A model generated the notes under the pieces. It saw nothing but the letters and a program-made list of their open reading frames with translations, was not told the origin of the DNA and ran no database searches. 64,000 bases of DNA from Gammaproteobacteria bacterium (GTDB taxonomy: Bacteria > Pseudomonadota > Gammaproteobacteria > Steroidobacterales > Steroidobacteraceae). The position numbers were made by a program, and so were the translations under genes. Shown piece by piece: positions 36,173-39,290 of this stretch. Each line of letters opens with the position of its first letter. Positions within the stretch are counted from its first letter, which is position 1. Location of the stretch: contig JAJPKM010000006.1 in assembly GCA_021323735.1 (NCBI GenBank), positions 1-64,000 of the forward strand, read 5' to 3'.

Positions 36173-36263
36173 GGAGAGGTGGCCGAGTGGTCGAAGGCGC
36201 GCCCCTGCTAAGGGCGTAAGGGTCAAAAGCCCTTCGAGGGTTCGAATCCCTCCCTCTCCGCCA
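36173..36263 (+). tRNA. tRNA-Ser(GCU)
   Basis: 91 nt including encoded CCA. Acceptor stem GGAGAGG/CCTCTCC, discriminator G, anticodon stem CGCCC/GGGCG with loop CTGCTAA (anticodon GCT at 36207-36209), a long class II variable arm (AGGG...CCCTT), and T-arm GAGGG-TTCGAAT-CCCTC. Its place after csrA is conserved in Gammaproteobacteria. Confidence 0.97.
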
Positions 36264-36324: not shown

Positions 36325-36494
36325 GGGAGGGATGACATCGGAGCGTCTGCGACGGTGGTCCGGAGCGCAGCGAAGGACGAGCGGCGAAGCCGCGAGCACT
36401 AACGCGGCCGTCTGGCCGCGTTGAACGCCGAAGGTCCCTCCGACGGCGGCCCGAAGGGTGAGCGCGCAGCGCGAATAATCCCTCCCTCTCCGCC
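36325..36494 (+). repeat. Multi-hairpin element B ending in a copy of the tRNA-Ser 3' end
   Basis: An 18-bp exact copy of the tRNA-Ser 3' end (positions 36245-36262) recurs at 36477-36494. GGGAGGGAT at 36325-36333 can pair with ATCCCTCCC at 36478-36486, giving a T-arm-like outer stem. Within it lie several GC hairpins: GCGGC-GAA-GCCGC, AACGCGGCC-GTCT-GGCCGCGTT (36401-36422), CCC-GAA-GGG and CGCGC-A-GCGCG. The 3' half follows the same order of hairpins as element A at 39195-39273. No ORF with coding character covers it. Together with its flanks it fills the 463-bp stretch between the two tRNAs. Confidence 0.7.
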
Positions 36495-36615
36495 CGCGCC
36501 CGTCATCTCCGCAGGTTCCTGCTCATCCCTAAACCATTGAATTCGCCTATTTGTCGGCGACGTTTCATCGTTGGACGGTCCCGGCGTGGGGAATGGTGAT
36601 CGGCAATCGTTGTGG

Positions 36616-36621
36616 TAATAT
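36616..36621 (+). promoter_or_regulatory. Possible -10 element upstream of tRNA-Arg
   Basis: TAATAT followed by a GC-rich discriminator (TCGCGCCCC) about 105 nt before tRNA-Arg. The matching -35 (ATGGTG at 36593-36598, 17-bp spacing) is poor, so this is a weak call. Confidence 0.3.
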
Positions 36622-36726
36622 TCGCGCCCCTGACGCGGCCGGGGTGCTCTTCCTAGAGCGCCGAGGCAACTTCAGGGCAGGTCTGCTCGCTACAACCCGA
36701 GCAGGGGTAAGCGTCGATTTTCCTTT

Positions 36727-36803
36727 GCGCCCGTAGCTCAGCAGGATAGAGCGCCTGGCTACGAACCAGGAGGTCGGGAGTTCGAATCTCTCCGGGCGCG
36801 CCA
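36727..36803 (+). tRNA. tRNA-Arg(ACG)
   Basis: 77 nt including CCA. Acceptor GCGCCCG/CGGGCGC, D-arm TAGCTCAGCAGGATAGAGC, anticodon stem CCTGG/CCAGG with loop CTACGAA (anticodon ACG at 36761-36763), and T-arm GGGAG-TTCGAAT-CTCTC. A partial copy of its 3' half lies at 39168-39290, indicating use as an integration site. Confidence 0.97.
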
Positions 36804-36838
36804 ATTTCCAAACTTCGAGTAGGACTCGGAGCGTGATT

Positions 36839-37252
36839 TCAGCGCTCAAGAACCAGCTCCGTGTTTCCATACCGGAGCTGGCGCGAAAATCGTCCCTTCA
36901 CGCGCACGACGGGATTGACCGGCACCTGTGTCGAGCGGCCTTCATTGTAAGCTTGCTCGGCCGCTGTCGGCTCCCATTCGACGCCCAGCTTAGTGAGAGC
37001 CTGGCGAGCGGCGCCGGCAAAGCCGTTCGGACTGTCGAGAACGGTTGCTCCGGACAGCCTGGAAACAAAGGCCCGGCCATAAACGCCATAGCCGAGCCGC
37101 AGCAGCCGTTTCTCGCGTACAAGCTCGCGCAGGGCGCGCAGCACTTGATCCTCGCCGCCCAGATCGCGGAACTCGCGCGTCAGGAACACGGCATCCCGCC
37201 GGTGCGCTATCCGCGCCTCGACCTTGTCGCGCAATGTCATTCGATCTCGCAT
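36839..37252 (-). CDS. DUF6088 / AbiEi-like antitoxin-domain protein
   Basis: About 137 aa. N-terminal winged-helix segment LRDKVEARIAHRRDAVFLTREF and VLRALRELVREKRLLRLGYGVYGR, then a region with GFAGAARQALTKLGVEWEP and RVKGRFSRQLRYGN, as in DUF6088 proteins related to the type IV antitoxin AbiEi. No AbiEii-type nucleotidyltransferase toxin lies next to it, so it is an orphan here. Start uncertain: ATGs at 37252 and 37240, or a TTG at 37285. First gene inside the tRNA-Arg island, with an inverted repeat upstream. Confidence 0.72.
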   Translation of the reverse strand: MRDRMTLRDKVEARIAHRRDAVFLTREFRDLGGEDQVLRALRELVREKRLLRLGYGVYGRAFVSRLSGATVLDSPNGFAGAARQALTKLGVEWEPTAAEQAYNEGRSTQVPVNPVVRVKGRFSRQLRYGNTELVLER

Positions 37253-37289
37253 GTGCGGCCTATGCAAAAACCCGACATTAGTCAATCAT

Positions 37290-37315
37290 AAAAGCTGTGT
37301 AGATCAATAGCTTTT
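37290..37315. promoter_or_regulatory. Inverted repeat upstream of the DUF6088 gene
   Basis: AAAAGCT (37290-37296), 12-nt spacer, AGCTTTT (37309-37315). AbiEi-type proteins are known to repress their own operons through inverted repeats; an operator role here is inferred. Confidence 0.4.
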
Positions 37316-37332
37316 GATTTCAGCGTCTTGGC

Positions 37333-37555
37333 CTACTGTGCCGCCTTAGCCTTGCTCACCAGGTTAAGATTGATGCCCATGCAGGAGCAATGGAGGGCCT
37401 CCGCAGGCCCGCGCGCGGGCGCCACGTAAAGAAACCCGGCGCACCCGGTGCAACGGAAATGCTCTACGAGTTCTTTGTACGCTGCGACGACTGGCTCGAA
37501 ATCCAGAGGGCGTGTCCCTTGCGGGGCCGCGTGCTACTCGACGATCAGGCTTCAT
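37333..37555 (-). pseudogene. Decayed small gene with Cys-rich C-terminus
   Basis: An ATG overlapping the stop of the preceding broken gene opens MKPDRRVARGPARDTP, and a frame change then restores a coding-like stretch: LDFEPVVAAYKELVEHFRC, TGCAGFLYVAPARG and LHCSCMGINLNLVSKAKAAQ-stop (37333). The C-x2-C...C-x-C pattern suggests a zinc site. The whole is only about 70 codons, so an internal deletion is also likely. I do not recognise the family. Confidence 0.45.
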
Positions 37556-38008
37556 GCTGAGTAGCAATCTGCGACAGATACGCCTCAATGTCGCTCGACG
37601 ACACGCCCAAGGGCGCTGACCGGCCCGGATGCAGGCTTTCCATTTGCACTTGGATCATCTCCGCAACGGCGGTTCGGTCGGTCGCCGGAATGGATTCTGG
37701 CAATGGCGCCGCTCGTTCGACGTGACCTAGAATAATCTCTCGCAGACGTTCGCGAACGAAGCCCTGATAACGAAGTTCTATTGTCAGTTGTTCGGCAGTT
37801 TTGGGCCTGTGATGCGCGCCGGTCCGATATGTACCGGGTTCCTGCGCCTTCGCCAACGCGAATGAGCTCACCTTTTTCGACGAGTGCGGTCAGACGCCGG
37901 ATAAGGTTCGCCGAGGGATCTTGCGGCCGGCAAAGGCGGTATGTCTCCGGCGCCCTTATTTGGGTACCGGGCGAAATAGTTGAGAATGTGCGGGTCAACG
38001 TCGGACAT
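37545..38008 (-). pseudogene. Frameshifted winged-helix-type gene
   Basis: Coding signal passes through different frames on the minus strand: MSDVDPHILNYFARYPNKGAG, then DPSANLIRRLTALVEKGELI with RVGEGAGTRY, then TAEQLTIELRYQGFVRERL with REIILGHVER and ending ATQHEA-stop (37545). At least two frameshifts are needed, near 37930 and 37835. The middle part resembles a winged-helix reader domain as found at the end of Fic-type and related regulators. Overlaps the next decayed gene as in an operon. Function not assignable. Confidence 0.5.
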
Positions 38009-38511
38009 GAGTCAATCTAGAAGCGGTTAAATACAATAAAAACAATAAGATAATCGCAATCCGATGAGGCAAGTCACACCTTGTGAAGCAATATTTGAGG
38101 CAAAACATGCGCCGCTCCTACTACTGTCCTGTCAATGGACCAACAGACGTCCAGCTCAATGGTGTAGCCAGCGGCGACACAATCCCGAAATAGGGGGATT
38201 GTTCGGCAAGCATGCATCATGCGGCACGGCTAATCTTGCCACGGCGTGCTGCTTAGGAGTCCAGAGCGGCGACGCTCGCTGCGGAACTGGAACGCGCTGC
38301 AGCGCTTCGGAGACCGGGATTTTGCTGAGGGTGTTCCGCCGCCGTCAGCGTTCACGCTGACTTCAGAACCGGTGGCGGAACCTTGTTTGGCGGGCTCCCA
38401 GCCCGGTATGCCCATATGCTGGCGAATGGCAGTTTGGTCACTTGCCTAGCTCCTTGGTCAGTTCACGGTCGTTTGACTGCTCGATCATGATCCGCCTTGC
38501 GGTGGCGCAAG
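38009..38511. other. 503-bp stretch without a supportable gene
   Basis: Short open frames exist on both strands but none has a ribosome-binding site, family motif or convincing length. AT-rich at its left end, with an AT-rich tract near 38030-38050. Probably island debris between the decayed genes and the toxin-antitoxin pair. Confidence 0.5.
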
Positions 38512-38808
38512 CTAAAAATCATCAGGTCGATCAATTAGTCGCTGGCGGTAATGTTTGACAGTAAGTATTTCGATGCTAGCGGCAGAAACTCGGTAAATAA
38601 TCCGATACGGCCTTTCAAGGACTTCCCGAACTTCGTCGTCGACGAAAGCTTGTAGTCGCGCTCCGCTGCGTGGCGTGAGCATAAGCGCCTCTGCACGATC
38701 CAGAATTCGCTCGACCATGGCGAGAGCGCGGGGCTTGGAATCTTGCGCGATGTAATCGTGGATCTCCGCGAGCCGTGTCCGCGCCCGCGCGGTCCACGCG
38801 ACCTTCAT
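38512..38808 (-). CDS. RelE/ParE-family toxin
   Basis: 98 aa. Typical ParE-type start KVAWTARARTRLAEIHDYIA, the middle GARLQAFVDDEVREVLERPYRI, and C-terminal strand IYRVSAASIEILTVKHYRQRL. ParE members poison DNA gyrase and RelE members cleave mRNA; sequence alone suggests the ParE side. Overlaps the antitoxin gene by 4 nt (ATGA-type coupling). Lies inside the tRNA-Arg island. Confidence 0.9.
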   Translation of the reverse strand: MKVAWTARARTRLAEIHDYIAQDSKPRALAMVERILDRAEALMLTPRSGARLQAFVDDEVREVLERPYRIIYRVSAASIEILTVKHYRQRLIDRPDDF

Positions 38809-38990
38809 CGGCGTCGGCCGTATTCCCGCCGCAGATCCTCAGAGTCAGTGACGCGCCCCGCCTTCGCATCGGCGAGCCCAGCCTCCACGTCACCTCGAAG
38901 CTCTAACGCGTACACCAGATCCTGCCAGGTTGCGTCGTCCGGCAACGCTTCGATCAACTCATGTGCCCGCTGCTTGATGGCTTCTGCCAT
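38805..38990 (-). CDS. ParD-like / addiction-module antitoxin
   Basis: 61 aa, acidic-helical: MAEAIKQRAHELIEALPDDA, then a stretch rich in Glu/Asp ending RVTDSEDLRREYGRRR. Short size, the position immediately upstream of the ParE-type toxin and the 4-nt overlap identify it as the cognate antitoxin. It probably binds and neutralises the toxin and represses the operon. Confidence 0.82.
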   Translation of the reverse strand: MAEAIKQRAHELIEALPDDATWQDLVYALELRGDVEAGLADAKAGRVTDSEDLRREYGRRR

Positions 38991-39049
38991 AGCGTGTCCT
39001 TGTCTCGTGGAAACGACCTAACCCGAATTTTACCCGATTGCGAGCACTT

Positions 39050-39101
39050 GGCACCGTAGCGAAAACGTAGCGTTTGATGCAGTTTCATGCGCTACGGTGC
39101 C
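39050..39101. repeat. 12-bp inverted repeat with internal direct repeats near the island end
   Basis: GGCACCGTAGCG (39050-39061) and CGCTACGGTGCC (39090-39101) are perfect inverted copies; a further GTAGCG lies between them at 39067-39072. The position, 67 bp from the tRNA-Arg copy, suits recombinase arm-type or regulatory sites, but no integrase gene remains. Confidence 0.55.
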
Positions 39102-39167
39102 TGTTTTGAGAGAAGGCGGACCTGCTAAGTGGTTGAAAAATAAGGACCTATAAAATCGAGTTTCCGA

Positions 39168-39290
39168 CTATGAACCAGGAGGTCGGGAGTTCGACAACTT
39201 GGCCGTCTTCGGCCAAGTTGGACGCTGCCGCACAGCGGCGGCGGTCCCGAAGGGACGAGGCCGCAGGCCGAGCAATCTCTCCGGGCGCGC
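39168..39290 (+). repeat. tRNA-Arg 3'-half copy (att-like) split by multi-hairpin element A
   Basis: 39168-39194 repeats the anticodon-loop-to-T-loop part of tRNA-Arg (27 nt, one mismatch) and 39274-39290 repeats the T-stem/acceptor 3' part (17 nt). Between them, exactly in the T-loop, sits a 79-nt insert (39195-39273). It holds AACTTGGCCG-TCTT-CGGCCAAGTT, GCCGC-ACA-GCGGC, GTCCC-GAA-GGGAC and GGCC-GCA-GGCC hairpins. The copy has no 5' half and cannot be a functional tRNA. It marks the distal boundary of a roughly 2.5-kb island that begins at tRNA-Arg. Confidence 0.8.

Follow-up and report, generated by a model that had tools for sequence, protein, structure and literature searches.

Probable divergent RtT-type elements in second copies of tRNA 3' ends behind tRNA-Ser and tRNA-Arg genes of a gammaproteobacterium

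Behind the tRNA-Ser(GCT) and tRNA-Arg(ACG) genes of a gammaproteobacterium of the family Steroidobacteraceae (GenBank assembly GCA_021323735.1) lie two chains of hairpins, each seated in a second copy of the 3' end of the tRNA that precedes it. We have analyzed these elements in the first 64,000 nucleotides of contig JAJPKM010000006.1, the stretch that we refer to as the window, and in a large number of relatives. The elements are real, and they are RtT-type in kind, lying outside the Rfam family RF00391 by its cut-off. In our judgment they are probably divergent RtT-type tRNA-tail elements, in which a hairpin module is placed at the T-loop of the repeated tRNA 3' end.

A first-pass annotation of the window had reported, behind both tRNAs, second 3'-end copies joined at the T-loop to a chain of hairpins, and sequence comparison together with folding against shuffled sequences bears this out. 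The tRNA-Ser 3' end at 36246-36262 recurs at 36478-36494, where the hairpin chain interrupts the second copy at its T-loop, and the tRNA-Arg 3' end at 36786-36801 recurs at 39275-39290. Relative to shuffled sequences the Ser copy folds with a z value of -2.59 (2 of 200 shuffles equally good) and the Arg copy with a z value of -3.65 (0 of 200). The Ser copy is composite, consisting of two hairpin stretches in series, and on its left side carries an outer strand that is complementary to the tRNA end (GGGAGGGAT / ATCCCTCCC); over 138 of its bases it shares 90% identity with a copy that lies some 5 kb from tRNA-Ser(CGA), on the same contig as that tRNA. The Arg copy has no such outer strand; its left side is formed by a directly oriented stretch of 27 bases from tRNA-Arg, the anticodon-to-T-loop stretch 36759-36785 recurring at 39168-39194 except for one difference.

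The probable identity of the elements follows from their likeness to RtT, a little-studied repeat, to which they would be distantly related, mainly familiar from the tyrT operon of E. coli. Aligned over positions 1-130 of the 130 in the RF00391 model, the Ser copy scores 35.7 bits (E 1.9e-4), below the cut-off of 45, and it shares with RtT an outer stem, a hairpin chain, CGAG linkers and a terminal tRNA 3' sequence. Like RtT, both window copies follow a tRNA and repeat its 3' end, and tandem arrays behind tRNA are a further point of likeness. They differ from RtT in that their hosts are tRNA-Ser and tRNA-Arg, in scores under the curated cut-off, in the composite build of the Ser copy and in the direct 27-base tRNA stretch that stands at the left of the Arg copy, where the outer left strand of the RtT architecture is lacking. 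Two copies of this genome score 35.7 and 31 bits with the RtT model, and 5 matches in 3 of 12 relatives' loci scanned reach the gathering score. Because of these Rfam matches, sub-threshold for the Ser copy and above cut-off in some relatives, we reject the reading of an unknown element. The statement in the first-pass annotation that no named element behaves in this way is therefore not supported, and the match to a described family, which it had named as a refuting outcome, exists in part, for the Ser copy and at a score below the cut-off.

The annotation of the E. coli RtT copies describes them as tandem and as products of processing of the tyrT transcript. In the literature two Pasteurellaceae RtTs are described as giving Northern signals (PMC4986893), RtT is described with a tandem GA motif (PMC7657543), and Naville and Gautheret (PMC2965389) note a similarity of some attenuator candidates to rtT and the overlap of some rtT-like elements of enterobacteria with BIMEs.

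A strict pattern search of a genome collection returned at least 116 stretches, and 80 loci with 85 copies were read, two of the 80 being chance coding matches; since the 85 copies were selected by fixed letters, the constancy of their linkers and the ATC in their tails follow from that selection. The module is approximately 80 bases long and consists of four hairpins in the order C-P2-GRAC-P3-P4-CGAG-P5-CGAGTA, located at the T-loop position of the tRNA 3'-end copy. Among 45 cores 91.3% of the cells pair, and the covariation score is 0.536, compared to 0.136 after shuffling (0 of 500 as high) and to at most 0.113 when the sequences are slid; the covarying columns are not those fixed by the search pattern, and changes on both sides of a stem are seen in P2, P3 and P5. 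The proposal that the stems are kept paired through compensatory change is thus upheld. The outer left strand is fitted to the tRNA tail as well, with a mean of 6.13 as against 4.75 for permuted pairs and 5.30 for the highest of 2000 permutations, a comparison that uses 71 of 83 rows, 12 having been dropped for want of an anchor. At two tRNA-Gln loci (L056 and L091) the left strand, read by eye, is the reverse complement of the tRNA 3' half, including its own T-loop variant, which gives a minihelix-like stem with a GCCA end.

That the outer ends take the identity of the adjacent tRNA, a further claim of the first-pass annotation, holds across the relatives. Among 69 copies with a tRNA on the strand the tail agrees with that tRNA at 15 or more of 18 positions in 47 and at 13 or more of 18 in 53. 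When one cut-off copy is set aside, 47 of 68 relatives carry the tail of their own tRNA, whereas tails for other amino acids match in 16 of 3376 pairings and tails for the same amino acid taken from elsewhere in 519 of 1170. A second set, drawn from 89 of 98 matches, has the own tail in 54 of 66 matches with a tRNA. All 47 matched copies are downstream of the tRNA and on the same strand, 40 of them at a distance of 45-91 bases, and in all 47 the direct repeat shared by tRNA and element starts sharply at the T-loop; the window's Arg copy, with 27 matching bases to the left of the junction, is unlike them. The repeat ends no more than 2 bases past CCA in 20 of the 47, at 4-18 bases in 9 and at 30 to 263 bases past it in 18, and from these extents we take the unit to comprise the tRNA 3' end, a spacer (by eye often a terminator-like hairpin) and the module. 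Core identity between copies, tandem copies included, is 0.725 within a genome for different amino acids and 0.670 between genomes, which is at most suggestive of spread between tRNA types inside one genome.

Both further copies and conservation of the hairpins, which the first-pass annotation had set down as checks, are found. A core covariance model used together with BLAST gives 19 matches in this genome at E <= 0.1, some of them neighboring pieces of one copy. The copies are frequently tandem and lie at loci of tRNAs for Ser, Arg, Glu, Thr, Pro, Asn and Gln; one on contig C5 has a Ser-like 3' end with no called tRNA, a weak match (C5:76217) is without a tRNA tail, and in a third (C40:60310) the tail is absent by eye. 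Beyond this genome 49 of 299 Pseudomonadota genomes match the core model at E <= 1e-4, under fast filters that lose weak matches. Judged by record titles the 80 pattern loci are mostly from Gammaproteobacteria, with 2 from Zetaproteobacteria and 1 from Rhodospirillales. The RtT model, at E <= 1e-3, matches in 34 of 185 genomes of the class, 11 of them above the cut-off, and among 14 control genomes in E. coli only; 4695 of 5426 E. coli genomes match, at 1 to 14 places each, and all 15 of the E. coli matches listed are annotated as RtT small RNA. Host tRNAs at 74 loci are those for Gln (21), Ser (19), Arg (14), Tyr (8), Lys (6), Pro (3) and Glu, Asn and Asp (1 each). At three loci (L211, L214, L222) copies stand between tRNA-Tyr and tRNA-Gly genes and hence within apparent transcription units.

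By analogy with the rtT RNA of E. coli, the element would be transcribed by read-through from the tRNA operon, the transcript would fold, and tRNA maturation enzymes may then release the element with a tRNA-like 3' end, as a regulatory RNA or perhaps as a mere passenger; arrays would alter by recombination. A structured RNA with such an end had been among the possibilities raised at the outset, and we judge it a fair guess. A number of observations weigh against this picture. In many relatives a terminator-like hairpin, seen by eye, lies between tRNA and element, so that read-through may be weak. Where tails are imperfect (19 of 66 copies) the last seven positions match in 21-47% and decay proceeds from the CCA side, so that conservation of the tRNA-like end is not strict. 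Many copies have a weak outer stem, and 19 of 71 score 8 or more. Neither window copy reaches the RtT cut-off of 45 bits, so that membership by score is lacking, and for the Arg copy RF00391 is not listed even at E <= 10. Finally, G-U pairs outnumber A-C pairs by 16 to 6 in the element stems and by 23 to 1 in tRNA stems, which does not settle RNA versus DNA.

The coordinates of the window features are collected in Table 1. Upstream of the two tRNA genes are recA, recX, alaS and a csrA-like gene, names that we have read from translations and sequence.

Table 1. Features of the two elements and their host tRNAs in the window.
Feature	Position	Strand	Basis
tRNA-Ser(GCT), host tRNA of first element	36173..36263	+	tRNA call
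Outer left strand GGGAGGGAT, reverse complement of repeated tRNA end	36325..36333	+	sequence, fold
First hairpin stretch of composite Ser copy, last hairpin GAGCGGCGAAGCCGCGAG	36334..36397	+	sequence, fold
Second stretch of Ser copy, an RtT-like module; stems 36401-36422, 36427-36447, 36450-36458, 36462-36473	36398..36477	+	core model, 28.2 bits
tRNA-Ser 3' end, second copy	36478..36494	+	sequence comparison
tRNA-Arg(ACG), host tRNA of second element	36727..36803	+	tRNA call
DUF6088 protein between tRNA-Arg and tail copy; cargo, outside module	36839..37285	-	profile scan
ParE toxin-family protein, same tRNA-Arg/tail-copy interval; cargo	38512..38808	-	profile scan
tRNA-Arg stretch of 27 bases from anticodon loop to T-loop, with one mismatch	39168..39194	+	sequence comparison
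RtT-like module of Arg copy; P2 39195-39220, P3 39223-39243, P4 39244-39256, P5 39259-39269, linker CGAGCA	39195..39274	+	core model, 64.8 bits
tRNA-Arg 3' end, second copy	39275..39290	+	sequence comparison

Besides the RtT-type reading, a selfish mobile module has to be considered: the four hairpins would move by themselves, in the form of single-stranded DNA or RNA, and insert at GA|A within structured sequences, of which the tRNA T-loop (TTCGA|ATCC) and ERIC-like repeats are examples; the tRNA loci would survive because an intact 3' end remains upstream. We regard this as a real possibility that falls somewhat short of even, and it may be compatible with the RtT-type reading as the route by which the element arrives. 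Presence of the element varies among congeners: by eye 7 of 19 readable tRNA-Ser(GCT) loci, not all orthologous, are filled and 12 are empty. A filled locus (L176) differs from an empty one (L179) by a 197-base unit between 20-base repeats, and the empty locus is matched better by the tail beyond the distal copy (100 of 133 columns) than by the proximal one (73 of 141). This difference fits insertion or clean loss, and filled and empty pairs in general are also compatible with loss. The Arg copy of the window looks like a plain insertion into half of tRNA-Arg. E. coli proK, where RtT stands behind tRNA-Pro and its copy number varies among strains, is found with one unit, with two units and in a form with 168 bases fewer between 108-base direct repeats; because the last retains a truncated element beside a stretch resembling REP, it is ruled out as a virgin empty site and looks like array contraction. 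In some strains (L229) the transposase gene of IS621 (IS110 family) lies approximately 200 bases downstream, and at another locus (L321:7828-9039) an insertion sequence-like transposase in two frames, read from translation, stands between tRNA-Asn and two RtT-like copies.

The module also occurs in repeats outside tRNA genes. ERICs can carry inserts of approximately 70 bases. In one genome (G509, L286-L315) with 30 repeats that we take to be ERIC-like from a primer motif, the module is present in 18 copies, absent in 5 and not parsed in 7; empty copies read GTGA|ACGC and filled ones GTGA[C...CGAGTA]TCGC or nearly so, to be compared with the tRNA junction TTCGA|ATCC. By eye, 22 of the 30 could be parsed by insert site, giving 17 right-hand inserts, 6 at GGA|ATCCC, 4 at CAGGA|AGG and 1 near the latter, with three inserts each in L301 and L311. 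None of the 5 empty loci is matched by the core model, and 24 of the remaining 25 are, in 22 cases at the right-hand insert; matches elsewhere (L294, L297, L300, L301, L311, L312) are at presumed left-hand insert places. By the core model and by hairpin order the right-hand insert is the same module as that behind tRNAs, differing in that it sits within a repeat resembling a miniature inverted-repeat transposable element and has no tRNA end; the window copies, for their part, are located in tRNA ends and lack ERIC arms. The core model also matches a repeat copy that is flanked by ybtP and ybtA on a Salmonella plasmid (L325). In a second genome (G497, L246-L257) the module occurs within dispersed long hairpin chains with no tRNA called in the stretches examined. 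Several of these copies have a common right flank, and a filled/empty comparison among them found no empty form.

That inserts are present at several sites within ERIC-like repeats, most of these sites having the GA|A of the T-loop junction, points to a mobile hairpin module. Against it, the ERIC-like repeats have been dissected in one genome only, the insert at GGA|ATCCC has no core-model match and is related by hairpin order by eye, and each site may reflect one event that was spread by the carrier repeat. Neither is there an enzyme: RAYT (Y1_Tnp, PF01797) has no match at E <= 0.001 in this genome, which is 95.9% complete, and the elements thus do not qualify as GTAG-REP with RAYT. Vehicles fare no better. 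The 31 plasmid records that match RtT are all typed as non-mobilizable and several are of megabase size, the smaller ones not having been checked further; of the 3 phage records that match, two are contigs of more than 500 kb. Both vehicles were rejected. Viral stretches give 4 RtT matches, with tRNA-Ser at one of the four loci, and a query of ERIC-like repeat plus insert matches 271 plasmid records, 198 of them typed conjugative. The mobile element that the first-pass annotation had considered therefore gains from the variation among congeners and from the several insert sites, and it is left with no vehicle or enzyme of its own in these searches. At similar odds, RtT repeats, the internal inserts of ERIC-like repeats and other dispersed hairpin chains could all house one and the same mobile module of four hairpins, which would enter structured sequences at GA|A, the outer strand in tRNA tails being fitted to the host by templated copying or by selection. 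In a weak literature search that judged most papers by title and reached few subscription papers, none of the titles listed links RtT with an ERIC insert.

It is unlikely that the elements are remnants of integrative islands, with the repeated tRNA end as attR and the hairpins as an attP arm. As with tRNA-targeting integrative elements (attL/attR), a duplicated 3' end lies beside an intact tRNA and cargo genes are sometimes present: the 2.4 kb between tRNA-Arg and its tail copy spans the DUF6088 and ParE-family toxin genes, and SDR, Mrr_cat, PIN and NYN domains are encoded between tRNA and tail copy, or between copies, elsewhere in the genome. The start of the direct repeat at the T-loop and its end within 2 bases of CCA in 20 of 47 copies would also be expected for an attachment site. 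However, 40 of the 47 matched copies are less than 92 bases from their tRNA, the repeat runs 30 or more bases past CCA in 18, the units of 168 bases (proK) and 197 bases (L176) are too short for a recombinase gene, and the hairpin module lies within the repeated end itself. No integrase is found among the 5 open reading frames scanned in the interval behind tRNA-Arg, which may be decayed, nor among 9 elsewhere, and the att-site structure offered in the first-pass annotation is not supported by these scans. The interval itself (36804-39167), with its DUF6088 and ParE-family genes, resembles a small decayed islet. Integron attC sites have the cores RYYYAAC ... GTTRRRY; the motif is not seen in the relatives, which by eye start GTTCGAC, a start set by the search pattern, and IntI was not searched for.

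That ordinary terminators or REP-like repeats merely chance to follow tRNA genes is highly improbable, since the GC-richness of the hairpins and the overlap of some enterobacterial rtT-like elements with BIMEs, as noted in PMC2965389, are set against a specific hairpin order, covarying stems, a cognate tRNA tail at the end and the absence of RAYT from this genome.

As far as our searches show, what is new is the reach of RtT-type elements over tRNAs and taxa, ends that are fitted to the host tRNA and a module likely shared with ERIC-like repeats. If a broad family does stand behind Ser, Gln, Arg, Tyr, Lys and other tRNAs, borrowing the tail of each host, it would supply many natural variants for testing how tRNA-like ends are processed, and it would allow tests of a possible part of the RNA in the stringent response and of whether a hairpin module without genes can move between structured sequences.

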